64,000 nucleotides of DNA from Polytrichum commune (taxonomy: Eukaryota > Streptophyta > Polytrichopsida > Polytrichales > Polytrichaceae), in the NCBI GenBank assembly GCA_950295325.1, contig OX485805.1, forward strand, positions 46,774,758-46,838,757, written 5' to 3'. The first letter of the stretch is position 1. The number at the start of each line of letters is the position of its first letter. Under the pieces are notes generated by a model. That model searched no databases. It saw only the letters and a list, made by a program, of their open reading frames with translations, and was not told the origin of the DNA. Both the position numbers and the translations under genes were made by a program. Below are positions 521-60,689 of this stretch, one piece after another.

Positions 521-3130
521 GACGAAATAAAACCTGCATTGCACATCAATAATGCCAACATCTCATTCTATGACTTTTGTAAACATACACAAAACCCCAT
601 ACACCCAATTTTACTCAGTACGAACAAATTATTCTAACCACTTGTACAAATCATAGTCGCAAAATTCATTCTAGTCGAGAATTCTTGATCTAGGTAAAGC
701 CCTAATATTTCAAAAAGAGATGGAGAGTGGGCCAACACAAAAGAAGCCTTCAAATGAACATGTTCCAATTGTACTCCTCGTCTAATTGTGCTCATAATAG
801 AATCTCCCTTCCTTCCTATTCTCCCAACATAAATAACATGGCCACATGTTTTTGTGTCAGCTCATTTATATTGCTTGGGGAAGTATTTTTGTGGGAGTTC
901 CCATGCAAATCAAAAACTCTTTGTATGCAAAACTATTCATTATTGATGACTAACATAGGAAATCTAATGAAAAACATTGGCAACCTCTGCATACAAGCGA
1001 TAAAGCATGGTGTTAAGAACAAGAACCTTAGATCCTACTCTCATCTACCATGGTCAAGTTACACGACTCAAGTATTTTGCAAGCACAAAATGCAAAAATT
1101 GCCTAAAACAATTCAAACAATAAGCCATATTGATTCTTATCACAATTGATGCAATATAGAGTTCCAGCCAAGCTATAAGCAGACAAGTTGCTATACGTGC
1201 GGCTTAGCCCAATGAATTTGGTTACGATAATACGTCAAGTAGAATAGAAATGAAAAAAAAAGTTCATGTCCTAGGGACTTCAACGAACATTAATCCAAAT
1301 ATTCAATTTAAGGACAACTTTATGAACGAAAAATCCTTGAAATTCATTGGTTTTCACTATGGAGTAGCCAAAGAGCATGCAAAGTAGGGGGTGTCTAAAA
1401 ATTATCCATAAGGCTTACTTACTGCGCCCCATATGCTTCATCAACCAATACTAATGCATCCCAAGCACCGAGCATCATATACCCATGTGACATATCTAAA
1501 GTCCTTGCCTCTTATAATCATAACCCTTTGTTATTTTAAAACTTATGAACTTAATTTTGTATTGTGTCCATAAATATATTATGGCCCTAAATCATACGAG
1601 GTAGACACCCTATTGTCTTTATTGGACATAACTTTTATAAATGAGAAAAAAATTAGAGTCCATATAAATTGAATATTTGTGAGTTTATCCCCAACATCCT
1701 CACATTGAGGACGTAAGAAATGATTGTTGAAGAGTAAGTAAGACATATGTGATTTGTGGATCACAAAACTCGATACATGGATGACTCTCGTCGTCCAGAC
1801 TTTGAGGTTCCAAACGTGACCATACTTTGCGACATTTTGTCGTTGACCGAATACATATGTCACTAGGACTTGTTCTAGGAATATAATAGGTAATTATGCT
1901 CACATACTTTCATATAACAAAACACACATGCAACATACAACATGAAGGTAGTCGTAGGCTCACCTTGAAGTAGTCTTGAATATTTTCCTCAACAATAATT
2001 AGTCTTCGCTCCACGTTAGCATACCTCAATGTGAGCCTAAACACACTGCCAATAAAAAAATCACAATGAGCACACATGGCCCCTGGTATATTCAACATGT
2101 TGTAATAAGAGTCAAAGAATTTGGGAAATTTGCACAATCTCATATTTTGTTTTCTCTATTCATCATATGCGAAGTCCTTGTTCAACTTCTTATCATACTC
2201 TAGGAAGTCACTACAACCCCATGTTCCTCCAAACCTGAAATAAGATTGATTGTCCACAACCTCCCCAACTCAATTGGATGCAATCCTAAAAGCCGCAACA
2301 TGTTCATAAACATATCATTTTTTAAATCCTCATAGCGAAGTACGATGTTGTTTACGCTCAACAAGATAAATTGTTGTTTTTTGATATACTCACTACCAAA
2401 TGTCATAAGGTACTCACTTTGAGGAATGTTGTTGCTCATTCAAAGGTTGTTGGAATTTCATGGTGTGAATTTCTCAAAAACATCAATCAGAGGTGTTTGG
2501 TCTAGCAAAATGCAAGACATGATTGCAATTCTTTGGTGTTGGTTGGCAGCTTTGTGAAATCAAGCGCACAACTTCTACACTCTCTATTCTTCTACACAAA
2601 ATACATGCAACTAACATTGACTTTCAAATTATATTATTTGAAAATCCTTGCATTCTAGGCTAAGTATTACTCTAGCTAACAACATAGGTGACGAACAAAG
2701 TAGGCACTTTGGTGTCAAAATGTTAATTCTTTAAGGTGATGCATGAACTTCTGTAGACATTGGACGCTTGATGTGGAGATGAAATATAGATACCAAAGTT
2801 GCAAATGCTAATTGATCAAACATCCGAAAGAAAAGATCAGGCATGGAAGCAAAAGACAAGAAGGTCCACAAACATATGGAAAGGAGAATCGCTCAAGACA
2901 CCACCTGAGGATTTCGACACATGTTGTGTCATATTTTGTACAAGAGATCCAAATGTCTATGAAACGGAGACACTTTCTAGATTTTCTAATTTGGTCAACT
3001 TGTTAATAATATTGGTGTGTGGTCAGAAAGAATTGAAGTTCAAATTTTGCGTGCGTGTCTAACCTAACACCTACTTCACTATACACCACTAGACTCTATG
3101 ATGATAATATACACAAGTGACCATTACTGT
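521..3130. other. Gene-free AT-rich stretch with coding-like debris
   Basis: No supported gene. Two short minus-strand frames (2439-2200 and 2143-1910) have protein-like composition; the first contains VLRYEDLKND, loosely like a sulfotransferase segment. Stops separate them and no family can be assigned. The 5' leader and promoter of the gene at the left edge must lie in the first few hundred bases, but I see no convincing TATA box. Confidence 0.4.
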
Positions 3131-3149
3131 CAATCCCATACTTGATAAA

Positions 3150-3645
3150 CCAGTCCCCCTCCATTTCAATTCCAAATGTCAATCTCCAAAATTGTGCATT
3201 AGGACTAGGATTCGTTGCTTCGAACCAATACAAACTTGGCAATTTAGCTCGTAGTCCACCTCTAAGACTAGTGTTGAATCTTACAAGAAGAACTATAACC
3301 TATCATGTTGTTCATCAACCAATACATTGCATTCAAGCAACATTCATAACCGATACAAGCTGGGCATTGTTCAAAATTTGCAAACATCACACGATGTAGA
3401 CATTCACCAAATGTTTTGTTAAATTAGTGAACTTCATTCATGACAATTATATTCGTCGCCAAAATTGTTTACTTGCTAAATCGACACATAAAACTAAGTT
3501 TATCCAATTGTAGAGAGAACCATTTTGTTCGTAGTGTACCTCTTAGACTAGTGTTAATTCCTACAAGAAAGAACTATAACTTATCATGTTGTAGTTGGAC
3601 CAAGTGGTTGCATTCATGCAACATTCACAAAGACTTCCATGATCT
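3150..3645. repeat. Two diverged direct repeats, ~275-bp period
   Basis: The block around 3245-3370 recurs, diverged, around 3510-3640. Shared words include CTAAGACTAGTGTT / CTTAGACTAGTGTT, ACAAGAA, and ATCATGTTGT followed by a TTGCATTCAAGCAACATTCA-like end. Short open frames across both blocks are a by-product of the repeat. No terminal inverted repeat is visible, so a local tandem duplication is the simplest reading. Confidence 0.55.
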
Positions 3646-34331: not shown

Positions 34332-35107
34332 GAAAAGAAAAGATAACGCCCGTACAATTTGTACCGGCGTGAATGTGAGCCCGTTAACCCTATATTGATC
34401 TCGGGATCCGAGATTGCTTATGGGGTGTTATGCCTCCTAAGGGAGGTGGGCTCTGGTGTTGTGCAAAGTTCTTACCACCTTATGGTGGGTGAATAGGTGT
34501 TTGTTTGTTGTCAAGTTTCCTTTTATTCAGGACCAGGTAAGTAAGGTATTTGATGGCATTTTGATGTATGTTTTTCATGAGGGTTTTGATGTGGGCTTTG
34601 GGGATTTTTAAGTTGGTTAATTGTTCGATAGAGAGTTCGTGTATAGCTCCTCTTACTCCGGCGGTGATGGTAATGAGGGGGTTGGTTTTCCATCCGTTGG
34701 CTCTAAGTGCGGTGATTAGTGGGTCATATTTGGTGTGTTTGTGTGTGCGGGCTTGTTCGGGGAATCGATCATGACAATAGGTGAATTCGATGAATTGCAC
34801 GGTGTGGCATGGGGAGGGTAGTATTGGGGGTTGTGTTTGGTTGGGAGCTCCGAGGATGCACATTATGTCTGGTCTTAGTTTGGCCTGACATTGGCATGGT
34901 CTTTGTGTACAACTGCATTGGAGGAGCCAGTTGGGGATTGTTTGGTCTTGGGGTTGGTTGGGTAGATTACCCGCGTTGGTCAAGGTGAAGAACCGGGTGT
35001 TTTTATTGGCTTGTAAGGTTTGGGAAATGAGGTGTGTTGCTTTGTTGTGTCTTGCGATGCGTAGGCCTTTTAAGTATGGGTGTTCGCATGTGGATAATAG
35101 GTGCGGC
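34332..35107 (-). mobile_element. Non-LTR retrotransposon copy C: 5'-truncated, 13-bp target duplication
   Basis: CACTATTTACAAA occurs at 34319-34331 and again at 35108-35120, bounding a 776-bp insertion whose coding strand is minus. A 5' truncation with a matching direct repeat is the signature of target-primed reverse transcription. Inside are a continuous frame (35106-34480) covering the end of the zinc-binding region and the whole restriction-like endonuclease domain, then about 150 bases of 3' non-coding sequence. Its 3' region differs from that of copies A and B, so it belongs to another subfamily. Confidence 0.82.
34480..35106 (-). CDS. C-terminal fragment of a retrotransposon polyprotein: restriction-like endonuclease domain
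   Basis: The frame is open from the truncation point. It reads HLLSTCEHPYLKGLRIARHN (end of a zinc-binding region), then CSCTQRPCQCQAKLRPD, then QFIEFTYCHDRFPE, KYDPLITALRANGW and ITAGVRGAIHELSI, and ends LNKRKLDNK. The order C-x-C...PD...EFT...KYxPLI...ITAGxRG matches my recollection of the PD-(D/E)XK endonuclease at the end of R2-, NeSL- and Dualen-type elements. There PD, an acidic residue before T, and a following K/Y form the nicking site. Here these are the PD, the E of EFT, and KY. In the family this domain nicks target DNA to prime reverse transcription. No start codon of its own is needed; the piece is a fragment and probably not expressed. Confidence 0.6.
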   Translation of the reverse strand, partial: PHLLSTCEHPYLKGLRIARHNKATHLISQTLQANKNTRFFTLTNAGNLPNQPQDQTIPNWLLQCSCTQRPCQCQAKLRPDIMCILGAPNQTQPPILPSPCHTVQFIEFTYCHDRFPEQARTHKHTKYDPLITALRANGWKTNPLITITAGVRGAIHELSIEQLTNLKIPKAHIKTLMKNIHQNAIKYLTYLVLNKRKLDNKQTPIHPP

Positions 35108-35591
35108 CACTATTTACAAACATATAAATAATTTGTGGTTTAGGTACTCTAGAGCATAAAGGCTTTACTTGGTAAAATTACTACAATCTAAGTAAGTAAG
35201 AAGATATAAATTTATGCAACTCCAAATAGCAAGTGCTGATAAATACCGTGAACAATCTAGTGAAAGCGTGCACATGCCAAGTTACGATTAAGCATCATGG
35301 GCTTTCAAGTTTTGATGGCCACTCAATCATCGATGTTGTTGGCTATGTCTAGTACTTGATGTTGCCCTCACGGTGCTATCGGATCTAGCACAAATCATGG
35401 AGACCACCTTCCAATAAGAAGGTGTCACATTGAAGCTTAATAAAAACATGATTAGTATAAGGGGATTGGTCTCTCATTGATGTCAATGAATGAAACAACT
35501 TATGTTGTATCTATTCTATTACGGCTTGCAATCAAAATGGTTCGTAGTAATACCATGTCTCGTGTTATCTAAGTTGCTAATATTGCCACTA

Positions 35592-40495: not shown

Positions 40496-41821
40496 CTACT
40501 GCTGGCAGTTATTGCAATTAGAGTAAACATTGTAATTGTTTGGTGTACTACCCATAGCTGCTGCCCCTGTAACCCCACCAGGGATGACATCCACTCCATT
40601 TCGAGTCAGGGTCGCAACCTGTGACCCTGCCGAAAAGTTCACGCTGCAAACGGTGACACCTGCCGAAGCATTGCAAGTATTGGAATTACTTCCAGACTGC
40701 ACAGTAACAACAGCATCCGAAGCCACCATAGCCACAACAAAAACCTGGTCGCTGTTCAGTATGCTACATCCACCATCCGCAGCCGGATTAGTATAGTAAA
40801 ACATGTACAAGGAATCACCATCCGGAGTGGGCTCACTTCCACCACCAGCTTTGTACCAATTGATGTAGTGTTGTCCGAGCTCCAAGAATGCACGGTGCGG
40901 GAAGCTAGTCACATCATAGGCCGCTCCGGTGGCACTGAATTGGGGACCGACATACGAACATTCCACCCAATCGTTCCAGGTAACAATCTCCACCAAAGGG
41001 GGCTGGTCTGCTATGATCTGCTTCCATCTTTGTATCCAGAGGTTAGGTCCTTGGTAGTCACACTTCACTGATGAGCATCCGATGTAAGGATTGTAGAACC
41101 ATGGGCTAACACTTGCCATGTAAACCATCCCATGTGATGAGGTGGAGGTTAGGAAGTTTAGGTCACGAGAGTCTGTAGGGTTTGTGTAAGGGCTGGAGTA
41201 ACATGGCCATGCGGATGTGTCCCACGCATACAACCCATCCACAACTGACCCGAATTTGTTCAAAACGTTGTCAACATTTCCAACAGATGATCCATCTGCG
41301 CTGGAGAAGAATGGGACGAAAAATATGTTGTCTCTACCTCCAGCTTGGGAAAATACGGTTTGCCATCCAGTGGCAGCATCTGCTTGACCTTTTCCTTGCC
41401 ACCATGCATCATCCTCACCTAACCATGCTGAGAAGAATTGCTTGCCTTGGTACTTGAGCTGGTTCGGATGGTTGGAGTAGGTTTGAATCATGGCAACGAT
41501 GTCGGAGATGGAGAGCTGGGTGCCATCCGTGTCTGTATGGCAATCTGCTGAGAAGAAGAGGTAGAAATTTGATCCTAACTCTTGCGCAGCTTGGTACATT
41601 TGGTCTGCAAGATTCTTTCTCCACACGTTTGTGTTGAGTGCGAATGCTTCGATGCCTTTGCTTTGAGCTAATTGGATTTCTTGCTTGTAGATGCTGATGT
41701 CCACCGGTTGGTAGATCATGTAGTGAGCGAACACCATCCCGTTCTGCGCTTGTGCACTCTCCAGAAGCATGCTGGCCATCGCTACCATCATTACAACACC
41801 CATGCCCATCGCCATCGCCAT
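40496..41821 (-). CDS. Secreted glycoside hydrolase family 71 (alpha-1,3-glucanase)
   Basis: The gene encodes 441 aa in one uninterrupted exon, with an ATG at 41821-41819. Residues 1-25 are a signal peptide (hydrophobic, ending ESAQA). The catalytic region runs from about 29 to 325. Family landmarks are MVFAHYMIYQP (29-39), GIEAFALN (56-63), YLFFSADC (87-94), VDGLYAWD (194-201), SVSPWFYNPYIG (237-248) and TWNDWVECSYVGP (281-293), the counterpart of the WNDYGESHYIGP signature of fungal GH71 enzymes. Residues 335-420 resemble the beta-rich C-terminal domain of that family (VTVQSGSNSN, SQVATLTRNGV). GH71 enzymes hydrolyse alpha-1,3-glucan (mutan, a fungal wall polymer). A secreted role against fungal walls, or on an equivalent substrate, is inferred. 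The neighbouring gene gives no operon-like context. A single exon and a mainly fungal family suggest possible horizontal origin. Confidence 0.88.
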   Translation of the reverse strand: MAMAMGMGVVMMVAMASMLLESAQAQNGMVFAHYMIYQPVDISIYKQEIQLAQSKGIEAFALNTNVWRKNLADQMYQAAQELGSNFYLFFSADCHTDTDGTQLSISDIVAMIQTYSNHPNQLKYQGKQFFSAWLGEDDAWWQGKGQADAATGWQTVFSQAGGRDNIFFVPFFSSADGSSVGNVDNVLNKFGSVVDGLYAWDTSAWPCYSSPYTNPTDSRDLNFLTSTSSHGMVYMASVSPWFYNPYIGCSSVKCDYQGPNLWIQRWKQIIADQPPLVEIVTWNDWVECSYVGPQFSATGAAYDVTSFPHRAFLELGQHYINWYKAGGGSEPTPDGDSLYMFYYTNPAADGGCSILNSDQVFVVAMVASDAVVTVQSGSNSNTCNASAGVTVCSVNFSAGSQVATLTRNGVDVIPGGVTGAAAMGSTPNNYNVYSNCNNCQQ

Positions 41822-41837
41822 CTCTTATTAACCCCAA

Positions 41838-43363: not shown

Positions 43364-44123
43364 TACTGTACCTCCCTACTGCTCTCATCTTCCACTTGGT
43401 CTATTCTAATGATAAGAAGCTCAAACAAGGTAAGTCAACTCTTGAAATTCCATGGAAGAACCCGAAAAGCATGTGAATGAAAGTCTCTGTTGAATTGGGA
43501 GCGCTCGAGGCTACAGTTAAATCGCATCAATTCGAACATGAATGTCTACTGCTATGGTTCTACTGTATTCTAGTTTGGCTATTAAAAAACCTAAGTCAAG
43601 CGTTGAGATTTCTTGTAAGAACCTTAAAGCAGGTGAATGAAAGCCTCGATGAGCTGGAAAGTGATGGAAGTGAATCCCATTAGTTGTAATTTGACTGTCT
43701 ATACACATACATTACGATGAGTGATCTCATCACTCCTTGAAATGAGTCTCCACTCACTGAAGTGGAACTTCCAACGTGCTCAAGATGACCAATGCATCAA
43801 ACCTGAATGTCAAATGTTGCCATCACTGAGTTGATTAGTCAAAAATACTAACATGGATACATTCAACAATCACAGTGTTACATACCTCTCACTCGGTTGT
43901 AATTCTCAACTCAATTGACTAATTGAACACTTACTTTATTTTTTTGTAACATCAACTTACAATTGACCAAATAAGGTTTGGTCAAAGAAGCTCTACCACC
44001 CGACCATAGGAGAGAGACAAAAAAGACCCTCTCTCCTCCCCCGAGCTTCCTCTTATGCCGAAGCACTACTTTTACTTTCTATCTTTACATATAGTAAAAA
44101 TATTTTATTCATAGCTCTATCTT

Positions 44124-44520
44124 ATAGTTCTACTATGAATCTTCTATCTTTGGTTCTTCTAGAACCTTCTTTTCATCTTTTATCTCAATTTTATTCTTCC
44201 AATTGGAACTGTCTAATTCCAATTAGATTCATCCTTCTTCTTTCTAGTTGGAACTGTCTAATTCCAACTAGCTTTATCTATTCATTGAGAGTTGTCTAAC
44301 TCCAATGAATAACATTCATTTTTCCAAATATGGAGTGGTCTAACTCCTGTGCACCTCATCGAGAACTGTCTAACTCACGTGCACATGGTCTCAATTGGAA
44401 TGGTCTAGTTCCAATGCACTAAATGCGGAGCTGTCTAACTCCAGTGCACATGTTGTCAATCTGGAGTTGTCTTACTCCAATCCATTCATCTTCAACTGAG
44501 AGTTGTCTAGCTCTCATTTT
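44124..44520. repeat. Array of 9-11 short inverted repeats with an invariant GTCTA loop
   Basis: GTCTA cores lie at 44211, 44256, 44294, 44338, 44368, 44403, 44433, 44469 (as GTCTT) and 44505. Each is the centre of an eight-base loop (typically CTGTCTAA) with complementary sides: AATTGGAA/TTCCAATT, CTAGTTGGAA/TTCCAACTAG, GAG/CTC within TTCATT/AATGAA, GGAG/CTCC, GAG/CTC, ATTGGAA/TTCCAAT, GGAG/CTCC, GGAG/CTCC and TGAGAG/CTCTCA. Two similar hairpins precede them: ATAG-TTCTA-CTAT at 44124 and GGTTC-TTCTA-GAACC at 44152. Several units are followed by GTGCAC. Spacing is 30-45 bp. Stems differ between units but keep pairing. Function unknown. Confidence 0.8.
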
Positions 44521-44529
44521 TCTCTGCTT

Positions 44530-47500
44530 ACACACTGGCACCTGTAGTTAGAATATTCCTTCATAATTCTAGTTACATTACACACAGCTCCAAGTTACAT
44601 ACCTAGTTGCTACTCAACTTCAGTCACTAGTATGTTAATGCAATCACTTAGTTGTGGGCCAAGGGCTAGACACCCACCTCTTTGAGCTAGACCCCTAGTA
44701 TTAATACTTGAGATGAAAATGTAGCCAATTTTATTATAGCACGTAGATTTCTTTTTGTGGACAATTTGACCCTAAAATTAATATCAGAGATCCCAAATTA
44801 GTTTACGTGAACTCACTTGAGATGAATTTATCACAATAACTTTGAGTTGGGGCCTGTCACTATTACCAAGGTAAATAAGGATGAAAGTGTCTAGCCCTGG
44901 CCTTAGTGGTGCTCAATGTGTAGTTTTGGATTCGACATTAAGAAAGTACTTTGATTCTAGAAATACCAGATTTGTTAATTTTGAATAAAAAGTTCATTAA
45001 TATGGTTGTTACTTAATAAGGAGTTACCTTTACCAAGTAGACGTGAAAATGAAAAGGAATAAGGATTAGTCGAAAAGAAGATTAGATAAGGAATAAGGTG
45101 GAAGGTTCCAACAAAAAACCAATATTGAAGGAATGGTGAGGATTGTAGGATGGAATTTAAGATAGATTTAGGAAAATATTTAAGAGGAAAAACACTGCTG
45201 GATATTGGAAACTTGAGTACTACTTAGAAGGTCAGAAGTATGGCAACTGCTTTAGTATTGCCTATGAACTCGTAGTGTCAGGTAGGTGAGGGAATTAAAA
45301 GATGAGGTTAAGCTATTGTCATGGTAAGGTAGATGACGTCTTCCATTAGCAAGGAAGACAACTAAGGCATGGTGATGTGGACGAACTAGTGTCAGTAGAG
45401 GGCAAGGGTCCGGTAGTACTAGTAGAGGGCAAGGGTATGGTAATACCAATAATGAAAGGCTTCCGGAAAAGAGTCTCAATTGTGGATGGATACGATAGTA
45501 GTGAAGTCAACTAGTAATGGGACAAAACTGGTAGAGGCAGTGTCTGTATGTTGCACACCTCTCCATGAGGAGTGCCTGCAATACTATGGGCACAAAGGGG
45601 ACCCTAAAGTAACACTCGGGACTTGTGGCGTCATAAGTGAGAGGGCTCAAGTGATCCTAGTGTGAATAAGGGCCCGGAGCGTTGAGAACGCCTCATACCC
45701 ATAGAGACCAGGAGTCACAAGGATAAGACCATGAACATTGGGTAGCTTATGGCGTCTGGATTCTAAAATGCTCAAGAACTCTCCAATCGTAGGTGTGAGC
45801 TAGGAGATGTCGCAATTTGAGTGGGACGTTGAGTAGGACTCTGTGGTGGGACAACAATGACCTGGAAGTGGTGCTCAAGACTGCCAAGGTTAAGACAACC
45901 ATAACTCCTGCAATACTTGTTCAAATGGGGCAAGTGAGGAGTCTATCGACATCTACGCAAAGAATAGATGTCGATGGACTAGTTGCTTGATATAATCAAA
46001 GATCTGATGACAAAATTATGGAGGTTTGATGTTGCTAAGGGGTTCCAACCCCAACGGCTAAGGGAAAACGTCTACCTGGCCCCAACTCTTAGGAGAGAGA
46101 CAAAAATGTTACTTGATGGTGGGGTAAGGGCCCTATACAAAGTTGTAGAGGTTTTTTATATCGGGAAGTGGTTTTGGAGACTGATCTCGCCCATTGTAGA
46201 ATAACACGACCTTCATGGGCGTTGGCCCAACATGGGAGCGAAGTTGCCAAGTATGCTTTGGGTTGTTGTTCCGGCAACGCGTTGATCAACTCAATATCGG
46301 ATAAGCATGAATGAAAGTCCACACCTTGCCATTGACTACCAAATGAGGGGAGAATTCTGAATGCATGTATAGGAGGGTTTGGTAAGCAAGCTATGAGTTT
46401 GGATGTTGGTATGAGGGGCTAACCATGCGTGTGTATGGGATGTGCAGGGTTAGCATTCGTGACACTTGCTCAAACTGCGAAATGATGAAGACAAGTTGAG
46501 AAGAGCTAACAAGGGTCACAACATTGTAGTGGTATTTGGTAGTAGGCTAGAACCTGTAGCATGCATAATAAAAAGAAAAGAAAAATCATGTAGGTCCTAG
46601 TAAAGAATGAAGTGGTGGAGATAATATTCCCGATATTGTACCAAAACTAATAGTGTGATAGGATAGTAGAAGGGAAATAGGAAATAGGGTCCAGTATGAA
46701 TGTTTGGTTCTACCAAGGGTAAAATGAAACATTCTTTAACAATAGTATGCGAGCCTATAATGGACACTACCAACTCCAAAAACCATTTTTTTGGGCGTTC
46801 GACAATGGATGGGATTGTGAATTGTTTCATTTGGTTAGCTTTTGAGGATCTTGTAGATTGTTGTTACACGTGTCAACATTTGAGTTGAGATGCAAAAGTT
46901 ATAAAAGGTCAAAATGACGATTTTTCTTCATGACCTTCAAGTGGTCACATAGGCTCAACCAATTGTTTGAACTACAGAGCATAGCATGGTGTGCTTCTTT
47001 TAAGCATATAGTCCAATCTCATCGTAACATATGTTATTTTGACAGCCTTGCCATACCATTCAAAAGTAGGTGTTTGCATAAGACTAATGTTCATCTAAGG
47101 CTTGCATTTGGTGCAAAGACCTTGATGATTTTCAAGAGCCTTGGACACTTCAAAATCATTGCCAAATGCACTCTTCTTACCTTGGAGTGGTATAGAGCAA
47201 GGAATCTAGGTAGGATTTACTATCGAAAAGACACGTGGTACAATGAAATTAGATTATTTGCTTAAAGTATAGACACCATTCTATGCTTAATAGTTAATAC
47301 AATTGGGAAGGCTTTGACCTCTCCTATTCTTTTTGCAATTCAACTTTGATAGTGAAACTTGAATGACAATCTTCACGATTTACAATTGCTAAATGGATGA
47401 GACAATTCCAAACCCGATCCAACGGTCAAATTTGATTCATAAAGTTGAAAGTGCCCACAATAGGGCCACATACCTTGTACCGTATATCACAATTGGGGAT

Positions 47501-52049: not shown

Positions 52050-53175
52050 GTTGGAATATTTTGAAGTAACTCCTCAGCCATTTCCTCATCCATGTCGATG
52101 ACTTTCATCCATCTCGTCAACAAAGACCTGGATGAGAGCTGCTTAGGGCTTGGAGGCAATGTCCTCTCTGGGTGTCTCCGTCAAAAATTTCCTCAGATTC
52201 AAACTCTCTTCTCGGACGCTTGGTTTGCATCGTCACCTGCTTCGATTTCTTCACATCACCCTCTTCACATTCACGTAATTTCTCTGCAATTTGTTCATGT
52301 CAAATTTCTGGTAAGTAGATGACAATCGGTGGCTGGAAAACAGAGCACACGACTTCAATTGACGCAGGTAGGTTAAGTGCCGTGAAACATCACGATTGAT
52401 CAAATTGTAAGTCCAAGGTCTATTCATGCATTGTGTTTAATTGAATAACACAATCCCCCCATTACATTCCATAACTGGTATTCCATTTCTCCATGTTCTT
52501 CGTGTGGTTGTAGGTGACAAAACCGATGGCCGGAAACCAGAGCATGCTTCGCATGTCACGGTGAATTTAGGGTTTTGAGGTTCACTCATACCTTGTGGAA
52601 TCGTGGTGGATACAAAGGAGAAAAGTTTGAGCAGAATTGGCCACTTTTAGGAGAGGTAAGCTGTCCTTGGCTCTACCGGAAAGAAACCTTGAACGTCGTG
52701 GTTTTCATGCAGTATCGTGTCTATAGGATTTCTTGATATTGGAATTGGTTGGATTGAGCTTGATAATTGGTTATGCAGAGCTTCCAGATGACAGTTTCTC
52801 TTGAGAATTTGAGCCTGAAGATTGAGGGGGTGTAACCCCATCATGGACTTCATCATGTAGGGTTTGGCTCATGGAGTTAAGGTTTTTAGGTTTAATTGCA
52901 TCATCCTTCTAAGGTTTGCAATTGGTGGAATGCCCAGCATGTTAGAAAGGATATTCAATATGCTGGAAATTCAAGACAAGGTGGTTAGGGTTAAGCTTGG
53001 CAAACATGCCTATGGGTGAACACTTGACCAAGGGCAGACAGGGGTCAGATTTTAACCGAGCTTGATCTATTTGCATCGGTATCCAGCCAGCATAAGAGAA
53101 CTCTTTTCCCATTGTGGAATTGGAAAGGGGGTTTAATCTTGTGCACTGAAATTCATCGCAACAAGGACCACAGCC
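52050..53175 (+). promoter_or_regulatory. Upstream region of presenilin with a likely leader intron donor
   Basis: GC rises from about 52070. TTTCTG followed by GTAAGTAG at 52311 is a strong donor site, which suggests a non-coding first exon and a leader intron. The acceptor cannot be chosen with confidence. Two diverged copies of a GATGACAATCGGTGGCTGG-like block (about 52318 and 52513) lie in the putative intron. The ATG context is CAGCCATGG. Confidence 0.4.
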
Positions 53176-54633
53176 ATGGAGAAGGGGATTTTGGACACTG
53201 TGGGCAGTGAGATCGTCGGCATCGTAACCCCGGTGTCGATATGCATGTTCCTGGTTGTGCTTTTAGTCCACGTACTAAACCCGCATGGAGACCAAGCACC
53301 GGTTTCCAACATAGCCATGATGGTGTACAATGAGCAGCCGTCCGACTCGTTCTCCGAGAAGCTTGGGGGAGCATTGCTGAATGCGCTCGTGTTTGTCGTC
53401 ATCGTCACGGTGGTGACATTCATGTTAGTTGTGCTTTTTTACTACCGATGCACCAAGTGCCTCCGTGTGTACATGGGGATCTCCGCGTTCACGGTCCTGG
53501 CATGGATGGGAGGGATTGTTGCTGTCCAGCTGATTCAGTTGTACTCAATTCCCGTCGACGTGATTACGTTCACAATTTGTACCATAAACTTCGCGAGTGT
53601 GGGCGTTGCAGCTGTGTTCTTCTGCCGGATGCCGATTGTGGTCACTCAGGGGTATTTAATCTTCATCGGCATGCTCGTGGCGTTCTGGTTCACGAAGCTG
53701 CCTGAATGGACGACATGGGTGCTCCTCCTGGCTATGGCGGCTTACGATGTCGTTGCCGTGTTAACCCCAGGGGGTCCCCTCAACATGTTGGTGGAGATGG
53801 CGATCGCCAGGGACGAAGACATCCCAGCACTGATTTACGAAGCCCGCCCGAACGTCTCGAGCACAGCTCGCATACCTCCCACTCAAGCACAGATGACATC
53901 TTCGGCTGCGGACGGTCCCCGGCCAAGACGATGGAACCGAAGACGAGCTTCCCAGACGACAAACGCATCAAATGAGCCTTCTCAAACCACAGAGCCCGAG
54001 GGAAGCTCCAGATCACCAAACAATCAGCAAACTCTAAATCTTGCCACGACGGGTGCAGGTGACTCTCATAACAACCTGATCACTCAGCCTCCCATGGCAC
54101 CCGAAGTGGGCATTCTTGGCTCAAGATTGGTCTCTGCCACAGGGGAGGCGGGAGCCCTAAATGCCGCAGCGACCATTCTGAGCGACGACCGGCCCCATTT
54201 GGATGATGATAGAGTACCTTTGGTTCAACGCCACTCACAGATTTCATCAGGCAATTCAACCTCATTAGAGAGATTGGAAGCAGGACAGGAATTGCCGGCA
54301 ACAGCTGCGGTCAGAAATTCGGAATTGGCAGAGGATGATGAGGAAGGGATTGGCCTTGGGCTTTCCGGTGCCATCAAACTGGGGTTAGGGGACTTTGTCT
54401 TCTACAGTGTGTTGGTGGGACGAGCAGCTATGTATGACCTGATGACCGTGTATGCTTGCTACCTTGCGATTGTGGCAGGTCTCGCAGCAACACTGATTCT
54501 TCTTGCTGTCTGGAGGAGGGCACTTCCCGCTCTGCCCATCTCCATCTCCTTGGGTGTGCTGTTCTATTTCCTTGCTCGCCTTTTGATGGACCCATTTGTC
54601 CTGGACATGAGCACTAACCTTGTGTATTTTTAA
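53176..54633 (+). CDS. PSN: Presenilin, catalytic aspartyl protease of gamma-secretase
   Basis: One exon encoding 485 aa. Presenilin is the intramembrane-cleaving subunit of gamma-secretase; in plants it sits in endomembranes, and the partners nicastrin, APH-1 and PEN-2 are encoded elsewhere. Hydrophobic segments run from about 14 to 200 and 395 to 475. The first catalytic aspartate is D191 in AAYDVVAV, the second D406 in KLGLGDFVFYSVLVG, and the PAL motif is at 451-453 (LPALPISISLG). Between them lies a long hydrophilic loop (about 225-395) rich in Ser, Thr, Asn and Gln, with an acidic end (AEDDEEG), where autoproteolysis normally occurs. The N-terminus keeps MMVYNEQPSDS near residue 48. All signature residues are present, so it should be active. 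Length and loop size fit plant presenilins. Confidence 0.95.
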   Translation: MEKGILDTVGSEIVGIVTPVSICMFLVVLLVHVLNPHGDQAPVSNIAMMVYNEQPSDSFSEKLGGALLNALVFVVIVTVVTFMLVVLFYYRCTKCLRVYMGISAFTVLAWMGGIVAVQLIQLYSIPVDVITFTICTINFASVGVAAVFFCRMPIVVTQGYLIFIGMLVAFWFTKLPEWTTWVLLLAMAAYDVVAVLTPGGPLNMLVEMAIARDEDIPALIYEARPNVSSTARIPPTQAQMTSSAADGPRPRRWNRRRASQTTNASNEPSQTTEPEGSSRSPNNQQTLNLATTGAGDSHNNLITQPPMAPEVGILGSRLVSATGEAGALNAAATILSDDRPHLDDDRVPLVQRHSQISSGNSTSLERLEAGQELPATAAVRNSELAEDDEEGIGLGLSGAIKLGLGDFVFYSVLVGRAAMYDLMTVYACYLAIVAGLAATLILLAVWRRALPALPISISLGVLFYFLARLLMDPFVLDMSTNLVYF

Positions 54634-56097: not shown

Positions 56098-57430
56098 CTA
56101 GTAAATAATAAAACTCTAGGCCCATATAAGATACCCAACTCCATACTCAAAAACATGCCCCAAAAATTCCAACACATGTTATTCTTATCTTTCACACAAT
56201 GGTATAAACAATCTAACAATACCACTCTATTAAAAAAAATGAGATCTCTCCTTACTACCCAACCATAGACCTATAGCACTTGCTAACACTATCTACAAAC
56301 TTTATACCAACACTTTGACATTCATACTCTCATCATATGGAGAAAAATACCAAATACTACAAGATAGCTAGGAAGGTTTTAGAGCAGAAAGGTGCACATC
56401 AAAACAACACACAAACACAGACACTAGTAGTATCATTAGAAGACTCCCAATTCACCAACCGGGACATTTATTTACTTTACATTGACTTCAAAAACTCCTT
56501 TAGTGATATAGATCATGCACACATATTAGCTATCATGAAAGACTTAGGATACCCTGAAGACACAACCAAACTGGTAGGTAACATATACTCACATTCCAAC
56601 ACCATATTTACTAGAAAATACTTTGGCCAAACCAAAGAAATACCAATACAAAGAGGTACAAAACAAAGAGACACCCTTAGCCCATACCTCTTTATCATAT
56701 TTATGGAACCACTATTAAGATGGTTACAAAAAAGAAACTATGAATAGATCTTTGGAACATTCAAAACCACAATTAGCTTTATAGCATACTCAAAGGATCT
56801 AGTAGCCATCACCAACAAATTCACATCACTACAATCACAACTTAACAAAATAGATAGATATTGTGAATGGGCACGTATGGACCTTGGAATATCAAAATGT
56901 GCAGTCACATGGTGTCCAAATAAATCCAAAACGAACCAAGTAACATTCAAAACATAATTACAAATTGCCAATATCACATATAGAAACCAGCCCGTCCCAA
57001 TATTATATCAAAACAAACCATACATACACCTAGGAATCCAACTCATTCCATCCCTCAAATGGAAAACACAAATACACATCACAAGCACCAAAATTATCAG
57101 CCAATATAATCAATTAGCAAATTGTCCAACAATAATCAAACAAAAAATCAGTATGGTAGATACAATAATCAGTGTGAGAATTGCATACAACTTTTATGTA
57201 GTACCATACTCACTACCCGGATTCATAAAACTAGATACAAATTAATAATAACATTTCAACATAAAATATGTGGACTCCTTAATTACACACCAAATATAGT
57301 CACCCAACCACCCCATGAGTTGTTTGGAATAGAAGCATTCTCATTAAAAAAAAAACCTACCTTAGATGTATCGGAGAACAACTCAAAATTGCACTCAATG
57401 ATAAAGGCAAACTTGGAATAATATATAGGG
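56098..57430 (+). pseudogene. Reverse transcriptase remnant of copy B
   Basis: Readable pieces include NKTPGPYKIPNSILK (fingers), a GFRAE-like box at about 56375, LLYIDFKNSFSDIDHAHIL (catalytic Asp in IDF), IPIQRGTKQRDTLSPYLFI (primer-grip side; usual QGDPLSP-type motif) and, after a TAG at 56746, FIAYSKDLVAI. The last should be a Y/F-x-DD box, but the first aspartate is replaced (SKD), so the active site is broken. KWKTQIHI and QHKICGLLNYTPN follow downstream as in LINE post-RT regions. Confidence 0.75.
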
Positions 57431-60039: not shown

Positions 60040-60689
60040 ACATGGTCAACGCCAACAAACAACTATTCTTTGATAGGGAAGCCTTCTCATCAATTACATG
60101 CCCCATATGGAACTCCCCAAACCCTAATACATGGTTACATGTACTTTTAAAGTGCAAACAACACCACATACATGCCCTCCGAACCAAAAGACATAATAAG
60201 GTAGTATGGGAATTAAGAAAACTTATAGTGGCATGAGAAGAGTCAAGGTGTTATGTTCTCATGAACACAGGCACATTCAATAATGACCGCCCAAAAAAAA
60301 CACAGTCCCCCCATGGCTATTACCTTACACGTGTGCCCACACAAAGATGTCATTGCAATGCGAGATTCAAACCAGACCTCCTATGTGTGACAGGACAATC
60401 TCCACCACCAACAGACCCTAATGATAACCTAATAATACAATTCATGGAATTCACAAACTGTATTGATAGAATACCATATGAAACTATAATCACAAAACTA
60501 GAAAAATGTAAACCATTAATACATTATATTATCAAGAGAGGATGGAAGGTAGATCAACTAATAGTCATCACGGCTGGTGCTAGGGCAACCACACACACCC
60601 TTTTTATAGAAAGTATTGAAACAACATTTAAAATCCCTAAGCTAAGCATCAAACACACATTTAAGGAAATCAACCTCATTGCCATATAA
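60040..60689 (+). pseudogene. Zinc-binding and restriction-like endonuclease region of copy B
   Basis: TCPIWNSPNPNTWLHVLLKC followed by HALRTKRHNK corresponds to a CPxC...H...C reverse-transcriptase-associated zinc motif, with the second Cys mutated to Trp. After one TGA the frame 60261-60689 (142 aa) reads RCHCNARFKPDLLCV, QFMEFTNCIDRIPY, CKPLIHYIIKRGWKVDQL and ITAGARATTHTLFI. Each piece aligns with copy C (RPDIMCI, QFIEFTYCHDRFPE, YDPLITALRANGW, ITAGVRGAIH), which supports a conserved catalytic domain. Confidence 0.65.

Follow-up and report, generated by a model that had tools for sequence, protein, structure and literature searches.

Palindromic units in a solo LTR of Polytrichum commune: candidate regulatory boxes of a Ty3/gypsy-related retrotransposon

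Introduction

Within about 400 bp (44124-44520) of the window, the stretch of 64,000 nucleotides of Polytrichum commune analysed here, short inverted repeats succeed one another around a constant centre, while their arms differ from unit to unit and remain complementary. The locus raises the question of what larger sequence the array belongs to and of what would keep its arms paired. As possible answers, an earlier note on this DNA had named a structured RNA, a cluster of tiny mobile hairpins and a multi-site DNA target of a dimeric factor, with repeated production by a hairpin-making process as an alternative to selection for structure. These possibilities are examined below from the pairing of the units, their distribution in the genome, the element that carries them and the manner in which they change between copies.

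The array and its units

The nine inverted repeats with a GTCTA loop, described in the earlier note as lying 30-45 bp apart, were confirmed. In the window the loops read GTCT followed by A or T, which corresponds to AGAC in the element sense, the minus strand. All units are placed on that strand and occupy positions 44198-44227 (loop at 44211), 44244-44271 (loop at 44256, arms CTAGTTGGAA/TTCCAACTAG), 44280-44310 (loop at 44294, outer arms ATTCATTG/CAATGAAT with a one-base offset), 44332-44347 (loop at 44338), 44362-44377 (loop at 44368), 44395-44414 (loop at 44403), 44427-44442 (loop at 44433), 44462-44479 (loop at 44469) and 44498-44515 (loop at 44505, arms GAGAG/CTCTC). The unit at 44368 is weak, with two of the four arm pairs k2-k5 in the window copy; k2-k5 are the third to sixth pairs outward from the GTCT loop, the two loop-adjacent pairs being omitted.

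All four of these pairs are Watson-Crick in seven of the ten GTCT occurrences in 44124-44520 and at least three are in eight, and every one of these well-paired occurrences, at either threshold, is a member of the nine units. The random-shuffle control proposed in the earlier note was run on the region, and none of 2000 dinucleotide shuffles matched the observed number: units with four pairs averaged 0.02 per shuffle with a maximum of 1, against the seven observed, and units with at least three pairs averaged 0.20 with a maximum of 3. When 400-bp windows were moved in 50-bp steps along both strands, more than one four-pair unit was found nowhere except in those overlapping the array. Genome-wide, GRRNTTGTCTAANYYC was counted 858 times, versus 34 for a reversed-pattern control.

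Two short hairpins with a TAGAA loop in the element sense (44124-44166, minus strand) had been counted as variants of the same repeat. Both are present, as ATAG-TTCTA-CTAT at 44124-44136 and GGTTC-TTCTA-GAACC at 44152-44166; they have a different core and lie outside the array, between it and a TATA-like box, and hence are not counted as the same repeat. The unit centre holds TGTCTA, which we take to resemble the auxin-response (ARF) sites. This candidate was rejected because the A after AGAC is mostly C in two of the nine units (64-copy set), which breaks the site.

The repeat that carries the array

The array is part of a solo LTR and not a stand-alone feature. In an alignment of eight copies the repeat ends at 43876 and 44582, delimiting an LTR of 707 bp on the minus strand with TGTAAT...GTAACA termini in the element sense, that is, with the TG...CA ends of LTR retrotransposons. 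It is flanked by a 5-bp target-site duplication, CACAG, at 43871-43875 and 44583-44587, which borders the LTR directly at both sides, leaving no internal region. Related sequences differ in what lies next to the LTR: a tRNA primer site, TGGTATCAGAGC, adjoins it in L101 and in the single element covered by the stretches L008 and L009, and a purine run, GAAGGGGGAGAT in the element sense, lies beside the LTR of L002. The primer site is presumably of the tRNA-iMet type. From the shared ends, the CACAG flanks, the primer site and the purine run it follows that the repeat is a minus-strand LTR and that the window copy is solo, presumably the remnant of recombination between two LTRs. The word CACTAC at 44064 had brought the end of a CACTA transposon into consideration, which was discarded in view of the copy boundaries at 43876 and 44582 with their 5-bp duplication.

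When the genome from which the window derives (408 Mb, 64 contigs) was searched at the DNA level, 641 first-look candidates emerged; 40 of them were scored, with at least 45 matches at E 0.001 or better. For matches to the window LTR at 54 loci (58 given), both ends were located by script in 25, of which 14 are bordered by identical 5-bp flanks, the other 11 including LTRs of longer elements or loci whose start was missed by the search words. A word of LTR sequence lying downstream of the array was found at 171 genome places and at none for the reversed control; the family therefore comprises well over a hundred LTRs. A subfamily (L006, L008) has a longer LTR, and in L002 two LTR pieces (1342-1959 and 2944-3296), the second partial, lie about 1 kb apart, which suggests a rearranged or truncated element.

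The distribution of the units bears directly on the suggestion that they are tiny mobile hairpins inserted one by one. Small and regular inverted repeats would agree with it, but the unit positions are common to dozens of LTR copies, which already refutes it, and the target duplications are found at the LTR ends and not at the units. Moreover, core pairs 20 to 50 bp apart in the same direction occur at 376 places (19 for a reversed control), whereas, of the two opposite arrangements, one with a self-complementary pattern occurs at 5 (3 for its control); the count of 376 does not consist of LTRs only, because it includes other tandem repeats, such as C2:9827075-9827363. Single insertion of hairpins thus retains next to no probability. 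The tandem repeat on C2 has a 47-bp unit that holds TTAGACAA once, by eye without complementary arms, and looks unrelated to the LTR array.

The type of element was read from the relative L009, a long element in which one LTR is almost complete and 275 bp of the second are present, the two being 99.6% identical. In its four internal frames of at least 100 aa, the Pfam families matched above their cut-offs are Retrotrans_gag, RVP_2, RVT_1, RNase H, Integrase_H2C2 and SH3_Tf2-1, while rve, zf-H2C2 and Chromo fall below the curated ones. Their order on the minus strand of L009 (gag, RVP_2 with RVT_1, RNase H, integrase) is the PR-RT-RH-INT order of Ty3/gypsy, and by this order and its Pfam matches the related element, as distinct from the window copy itself, is classified as Ty3/gypsy. 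It is probably of the chromovirus type, as suggested by a weak chromodomain match (PF00385, E 8.7e-4, 19.6 bits, below the cut-off of 25.1) at the end of a reading frame.

Other coding traces surround the LTR in the window. An open frame at 40496-41824 on the minus strand matches glycosyl hydrolase family 71 (PF03659, E 4.9e-79); as the solo LTR, in the same orientation, is situated some 2 kb upstream, an effect of the array on that gene is conceivable. An uninterrupted frame at 53137-54633 (plus strand) matches almost the entire presenilin profile (PF01080, E 1.1e-130), and a reverse transcriptase piece is located at 56319-56747 (plus strand; RVT_1, E 3.1e-10). The frames at 34480-35109 (minus strand) and 60237-60689 (plus strand) are alike by eye and match no Pfam family at E 0.001.

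Position of the array within the LTR

In the window LTR the loops fall at positions 75 to 372 of 707 in the element sense, and about 117 bp downstream of the loop of the last unit there is a TATA-like box of putative function, CTATATG (489-495 of 707; 44088-44094, minus strand). Multiple palindromic boxes thus precede a TATA-like box. One of three TATA-like words tried is present in 52 of 94 arrays, at distances that fall within a single 10-bp bin in 27 of the 52; none of the three occurs in the other 42, many of which are short stretches. As the array stands upstream of the TATA-like box it is presumed to lie within the U3 of the LTR, the U3/R border being placed from that box alone. A further hairpin, GGAGAGAG...CTCTCTCC, is located at 44009-44036 in the presumed R region and is seen in many aligned copies.

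Unit number and constraint

The number of units is far from fixed. Exact AGAC cores number 2 to 12 per array in the 94 arrays with a cluster (one of 95 loci has none), and the commonest unit spacings in these arrays are 36, 30, 46 and 38 bp, both being rough figures because some stretches are incomplete or hold two copies. Runs of 46-bp units vary in length between copies. Such variation favours a passive origin, in which a few palindromes, formed once, for instance through a template switch during reverse transcription, became many by tandem duplication and have a symmetry without function. The comparison of copies speaks to the contrary, as units change less than their surroundings. Column diversity was 0.096 in the units and 0.161 in other array columns among 64 copies, and 0.219 and 0.260 among 30 copies, taking as unit columns the centre and the arms to k5; these figures include decay after insertion, and the unit columns were chosen for holding AGAC. 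Pairwise, the window copy and L101 differ at 5 of 144 unit positions and at 33 of 166 other array positions; L101 and L009 at 16 of 173 and 86 of 460, a comparison used loosely because the spacer class of the script included part of the remaining LTR; and the window copy and the L009 LTR at 10 of 144 and 18 of 166. Relative to the spacers, the rate of difference at unit positions is therefore 0.18, 0.49 and 0.64 in the three comparisons. In these, alignment is poor where units were lost or gained, which makes the spacer values too high, and possession of the core was the criterion by which units were chosen. Conservation of the asymmetric AGAC centre equals that of the arms.

Recently inserted copies retain the array as well. 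On contigs C1, C2 and C3 the listed places of the downstream LTR word form six site pairs 5301-5302 bp apart, from which ten LTRs (L099-L108) were retrieved. These are near-identical, recently inserted elements of the LTR family. L101 and L102, 5302 bp apart and regarded as the LTR pair of a single element, show no difference over 804 bp. The same 11 units are found in the seven of these ten copies whose units were read, ten units with at least four arm pairs and one with three only; hence recently active elements carry the array, with its arms retained, which also argues against a functionless by-product. The array is real and constrained and probably functional.

Covariation of the arms

Between units, the arms covary. 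For the k2 pair of 499 distinct units (746 units from 95 loci) there are 255 G-C and 144 A-T pairs, about 46 G.T or A.C combinations and about 50 other mismatches, so that the paired share is 0.81 as opposed to 0.46 after shuffling; this statistic was taken over all units, related ones together, and does not number events. The two innermost pairs behave differently: 0.733 versus 0.737 in shuffles for k0, and 0.511 versus 0.594 for k1, which is worse than shuffled.

Within one and the same unit the signal is of another kind. In a column-pair test on 64 copies, 6 of 24 arm pairs fell in the top 5% of 4358 column pairs (rank test, p = 0.001), whereas controls with slid partners placed 0 to 2 of 15 to 23 there; the median rank of the arm pairs, 0.228, was however the same as that of partners slid by +1. 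Reading of the rows removed most of the strong cases: k2 of units 6 and 7 most likely reflects deletion or replacement of units, k7 of units 2 and 6 consists mostly of combinations that are not base pairs, and in unit 9 a swap between neighbouring unit types is possible. For these reasons only k5 of unit 1 was kept as clean. There, on a tree built from other columns, G-C changed to A-T on three branches (with 22, 3 and 1 copies below), accompanied by six further one-sided changes. Within a given unit, clean compensatory change is thus rare and limited to one site. The covariation reported in the earlier note holds between unit types and, apart from this one clean site, is weakly shown for substitutions within a unit.

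These results cut both ways for the passive origin. Same-unit covariation that is mostly, and most likely, unit replacement, with a median rank equal to that of partners slid by +1, and mismatches that resemble strand-symmetric decay would be expected from it, but the clean G-C to A-T double change at k5 of unit 1 would not. With the lower rate of difference in the units and the arms retained in young elements added, we regard a functionless symmetry as unlikely.

RNA or DNA

If the arms were paired in RNA, element-sense G.U mismatches should outlast A.C ones. Counted as mismatch states of the arms, single-copy states are 8 G.T and 10 A.C and shared states 17 and 14 in the 64-copy set, and 19 and 23, and 23 and 21, respectively, in the 30-copy set, which gives no clear G.U strand bias in either. 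Counted as cells, which are not independent, G.T exceeds A.C by 86 to 59 (64 copies) and by 81 to 72 (30 copies). Folding of both strands, a check proposed in the earlier note, was carried out, and the segment 44185-44482 folds far better than its shuffles on both, with z -7.3 in the element sense and z -7.7 on the other strand; the segment 43876-44170 is weaker (z -3.3). Neither the mismatch types nor the folding clearly favours RNA over DNA.

An array of RNA hairpins would be conceivable in this context, since the genomic RNA includes U3 at its 3' end and the loop TTAGACAA could be displayed there to an RNA-binding protein acting in packaging, stability or localisation. A fixed asymmetric core with changing but complementary arms, the strong folding in the element sense, the k2 pairs that covary between units and the excess of G.T cells are consistent with it. 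Opposed to it are the near strand symmetry of the mismatch states in both sets, the equally good folding of the opposite strand, the loop-adjacent pairs that are not kept paired, and the Rfam search of 43700-44800, in which no family reached its gathering score and the sole match up to E 1 was mir-14 with 19.7 bits versus the 53 required. The structured RNA of the earlier note thus gained no specific support, with no clear G.U strand bias and both strands folding well beyond shuffles, and we hold it to be rather improbable.

Discussion

The reading that best accommodates these data is that the array is made of palindromic cis-regulatory boxes in the presumed U3 of an LTR of a Ty3/gypsy, probably chromovirus-type, retrotransposon, to which we assign a probability of about 0.62; the regulatory step is inferred. 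According to it each unit, approximately GGARYTAGACARYTCC with dyad arms, would be a putative box bound by a host factor, probably dimeric, and occupation of the boxes would switch on transcription of the retrotransposon. The array would have been enlarged by tandem duplication, because more boxes could raise or stabilise transcription, and the arms would differ between unit types and stay complementary because it is the dyad symmetry that is kept and not one fixed arm sequence. To our knowledge, no factor is known to bind the AGAC-centred unit. Two features do not fit plain binding boxes: a centre conserved like the arms is unexpected for a dimer site with a neutral spacer, and the k2 covariation exceeds what independent half-sites need. 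Hence, of the earlier proposal of a multi-site target for a dimeric factor, the multi-site regulatory part fits best, now placed in the presumed U3 of a Ty3/gypsy relative, whereas a simple dimer site does not explain the conserved asymmetric centre.

For this last reason a model in which the loop itself is read is also considered. The asymmetric centre TTAGACAA would be recognised in an extruded hairpin, either as cruciform DNA or as RNA, the arms would need complementarity only, and the tandem gain and loss of loops would tune the activity of the retrotransposon. We consider it improbable. Still less credit, of the order of a long shot, is given to the possibility that the array matters mainly because small RNAs silencing the element arise from it or are directed at it. 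The strong folding of both strands agrees with it, and clusters of palindromes in maize Sireviruses are reported to attract small RNAs (Bousios 2016, as cited in PMC10760457); but this would come at the expense of the element and leaves the retention of the array in young copies unexplained.

Regarding the regulatory boxes as the preferred reading, several known systems can be compared with them. The earlier note had stated that no named plant feature was like this one, which does not hold: according to Bousios et al. (2010, PMC2829016), the LTRs of Sireviruses (Ty1/copia) carry palindromic repeated motif (RM) boxes, at least eight per element and 3 to 14 in the 3' LTR. Most of these precede the TATA box and lie in the upper LTR half, and a few bases intervene within some of them. 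A regulatory role was there proposed but not proven, and the boxes were absent from the classic elements compared with Sireviruses. The window array resembles them in having multiple palindromic boxes upstream of a TATA-like box. It differs in that the related element is Ty3/gypsy, in its motif GGARYTAGACARYTCC, in outer arms that change from unit to unit and in a fixed asymmetric AGAC centre, and the CGG-CCG core of the Sirevirus RM occurs in none of the units listed.

Repeated cis boxes (BII) in the U3 of a plant LTR element are found in Tnt1-type elements. The present array is similar to these in kind and location, and differs in having many more units, each of them a palindrome, and in belonging to another superfamily. 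Arrays of two or three repeats are mentioned for such cis boxes (background in PMC2829016), and the cis-regulatory regions of transposable elements are described as often being arrays of repeats, sometimes palindromic (PMC10760457). In VANDAL elements the target motifs of VANC are short, dense, of the same orientation and spread by gain and loss of tandem repeats, and the elements encode their own VANC reader; the motif is not called a palindrome in the sections available (PMC5735166). The short motif in one orientation is common to both systems, and unlike VANDAL the four L009 frames match gag and pol domains only. A gypsy family with a chromodomain in the integrase is described in Physcomitrium, in a paper whose text contains neither "palindrom-" nor "hairpin" (PMC7466625), and titles and abstract openings of the literature searched, with subscription journals largely outside its scope, gave no description of an AGAC-centred array.

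The case also recommends caution, as striking hairpin arrays need first to be checked for LTR ends. The young copies with paired units, together with arrays of differing unit number, permit a direct test of array size against activity. Judged by superfamily and by motif, the array is not a Sirevirus array, and it would work as those arrays are proposed to work. With it, an arrangement of palindromes already described for the Ty1/copia Sireviruses is seen in what is presumed to be the U3 of a Ty3/gypsy element, and its occurrence in both superfamilies implies that palindromic box arrays may have had more than one origin.
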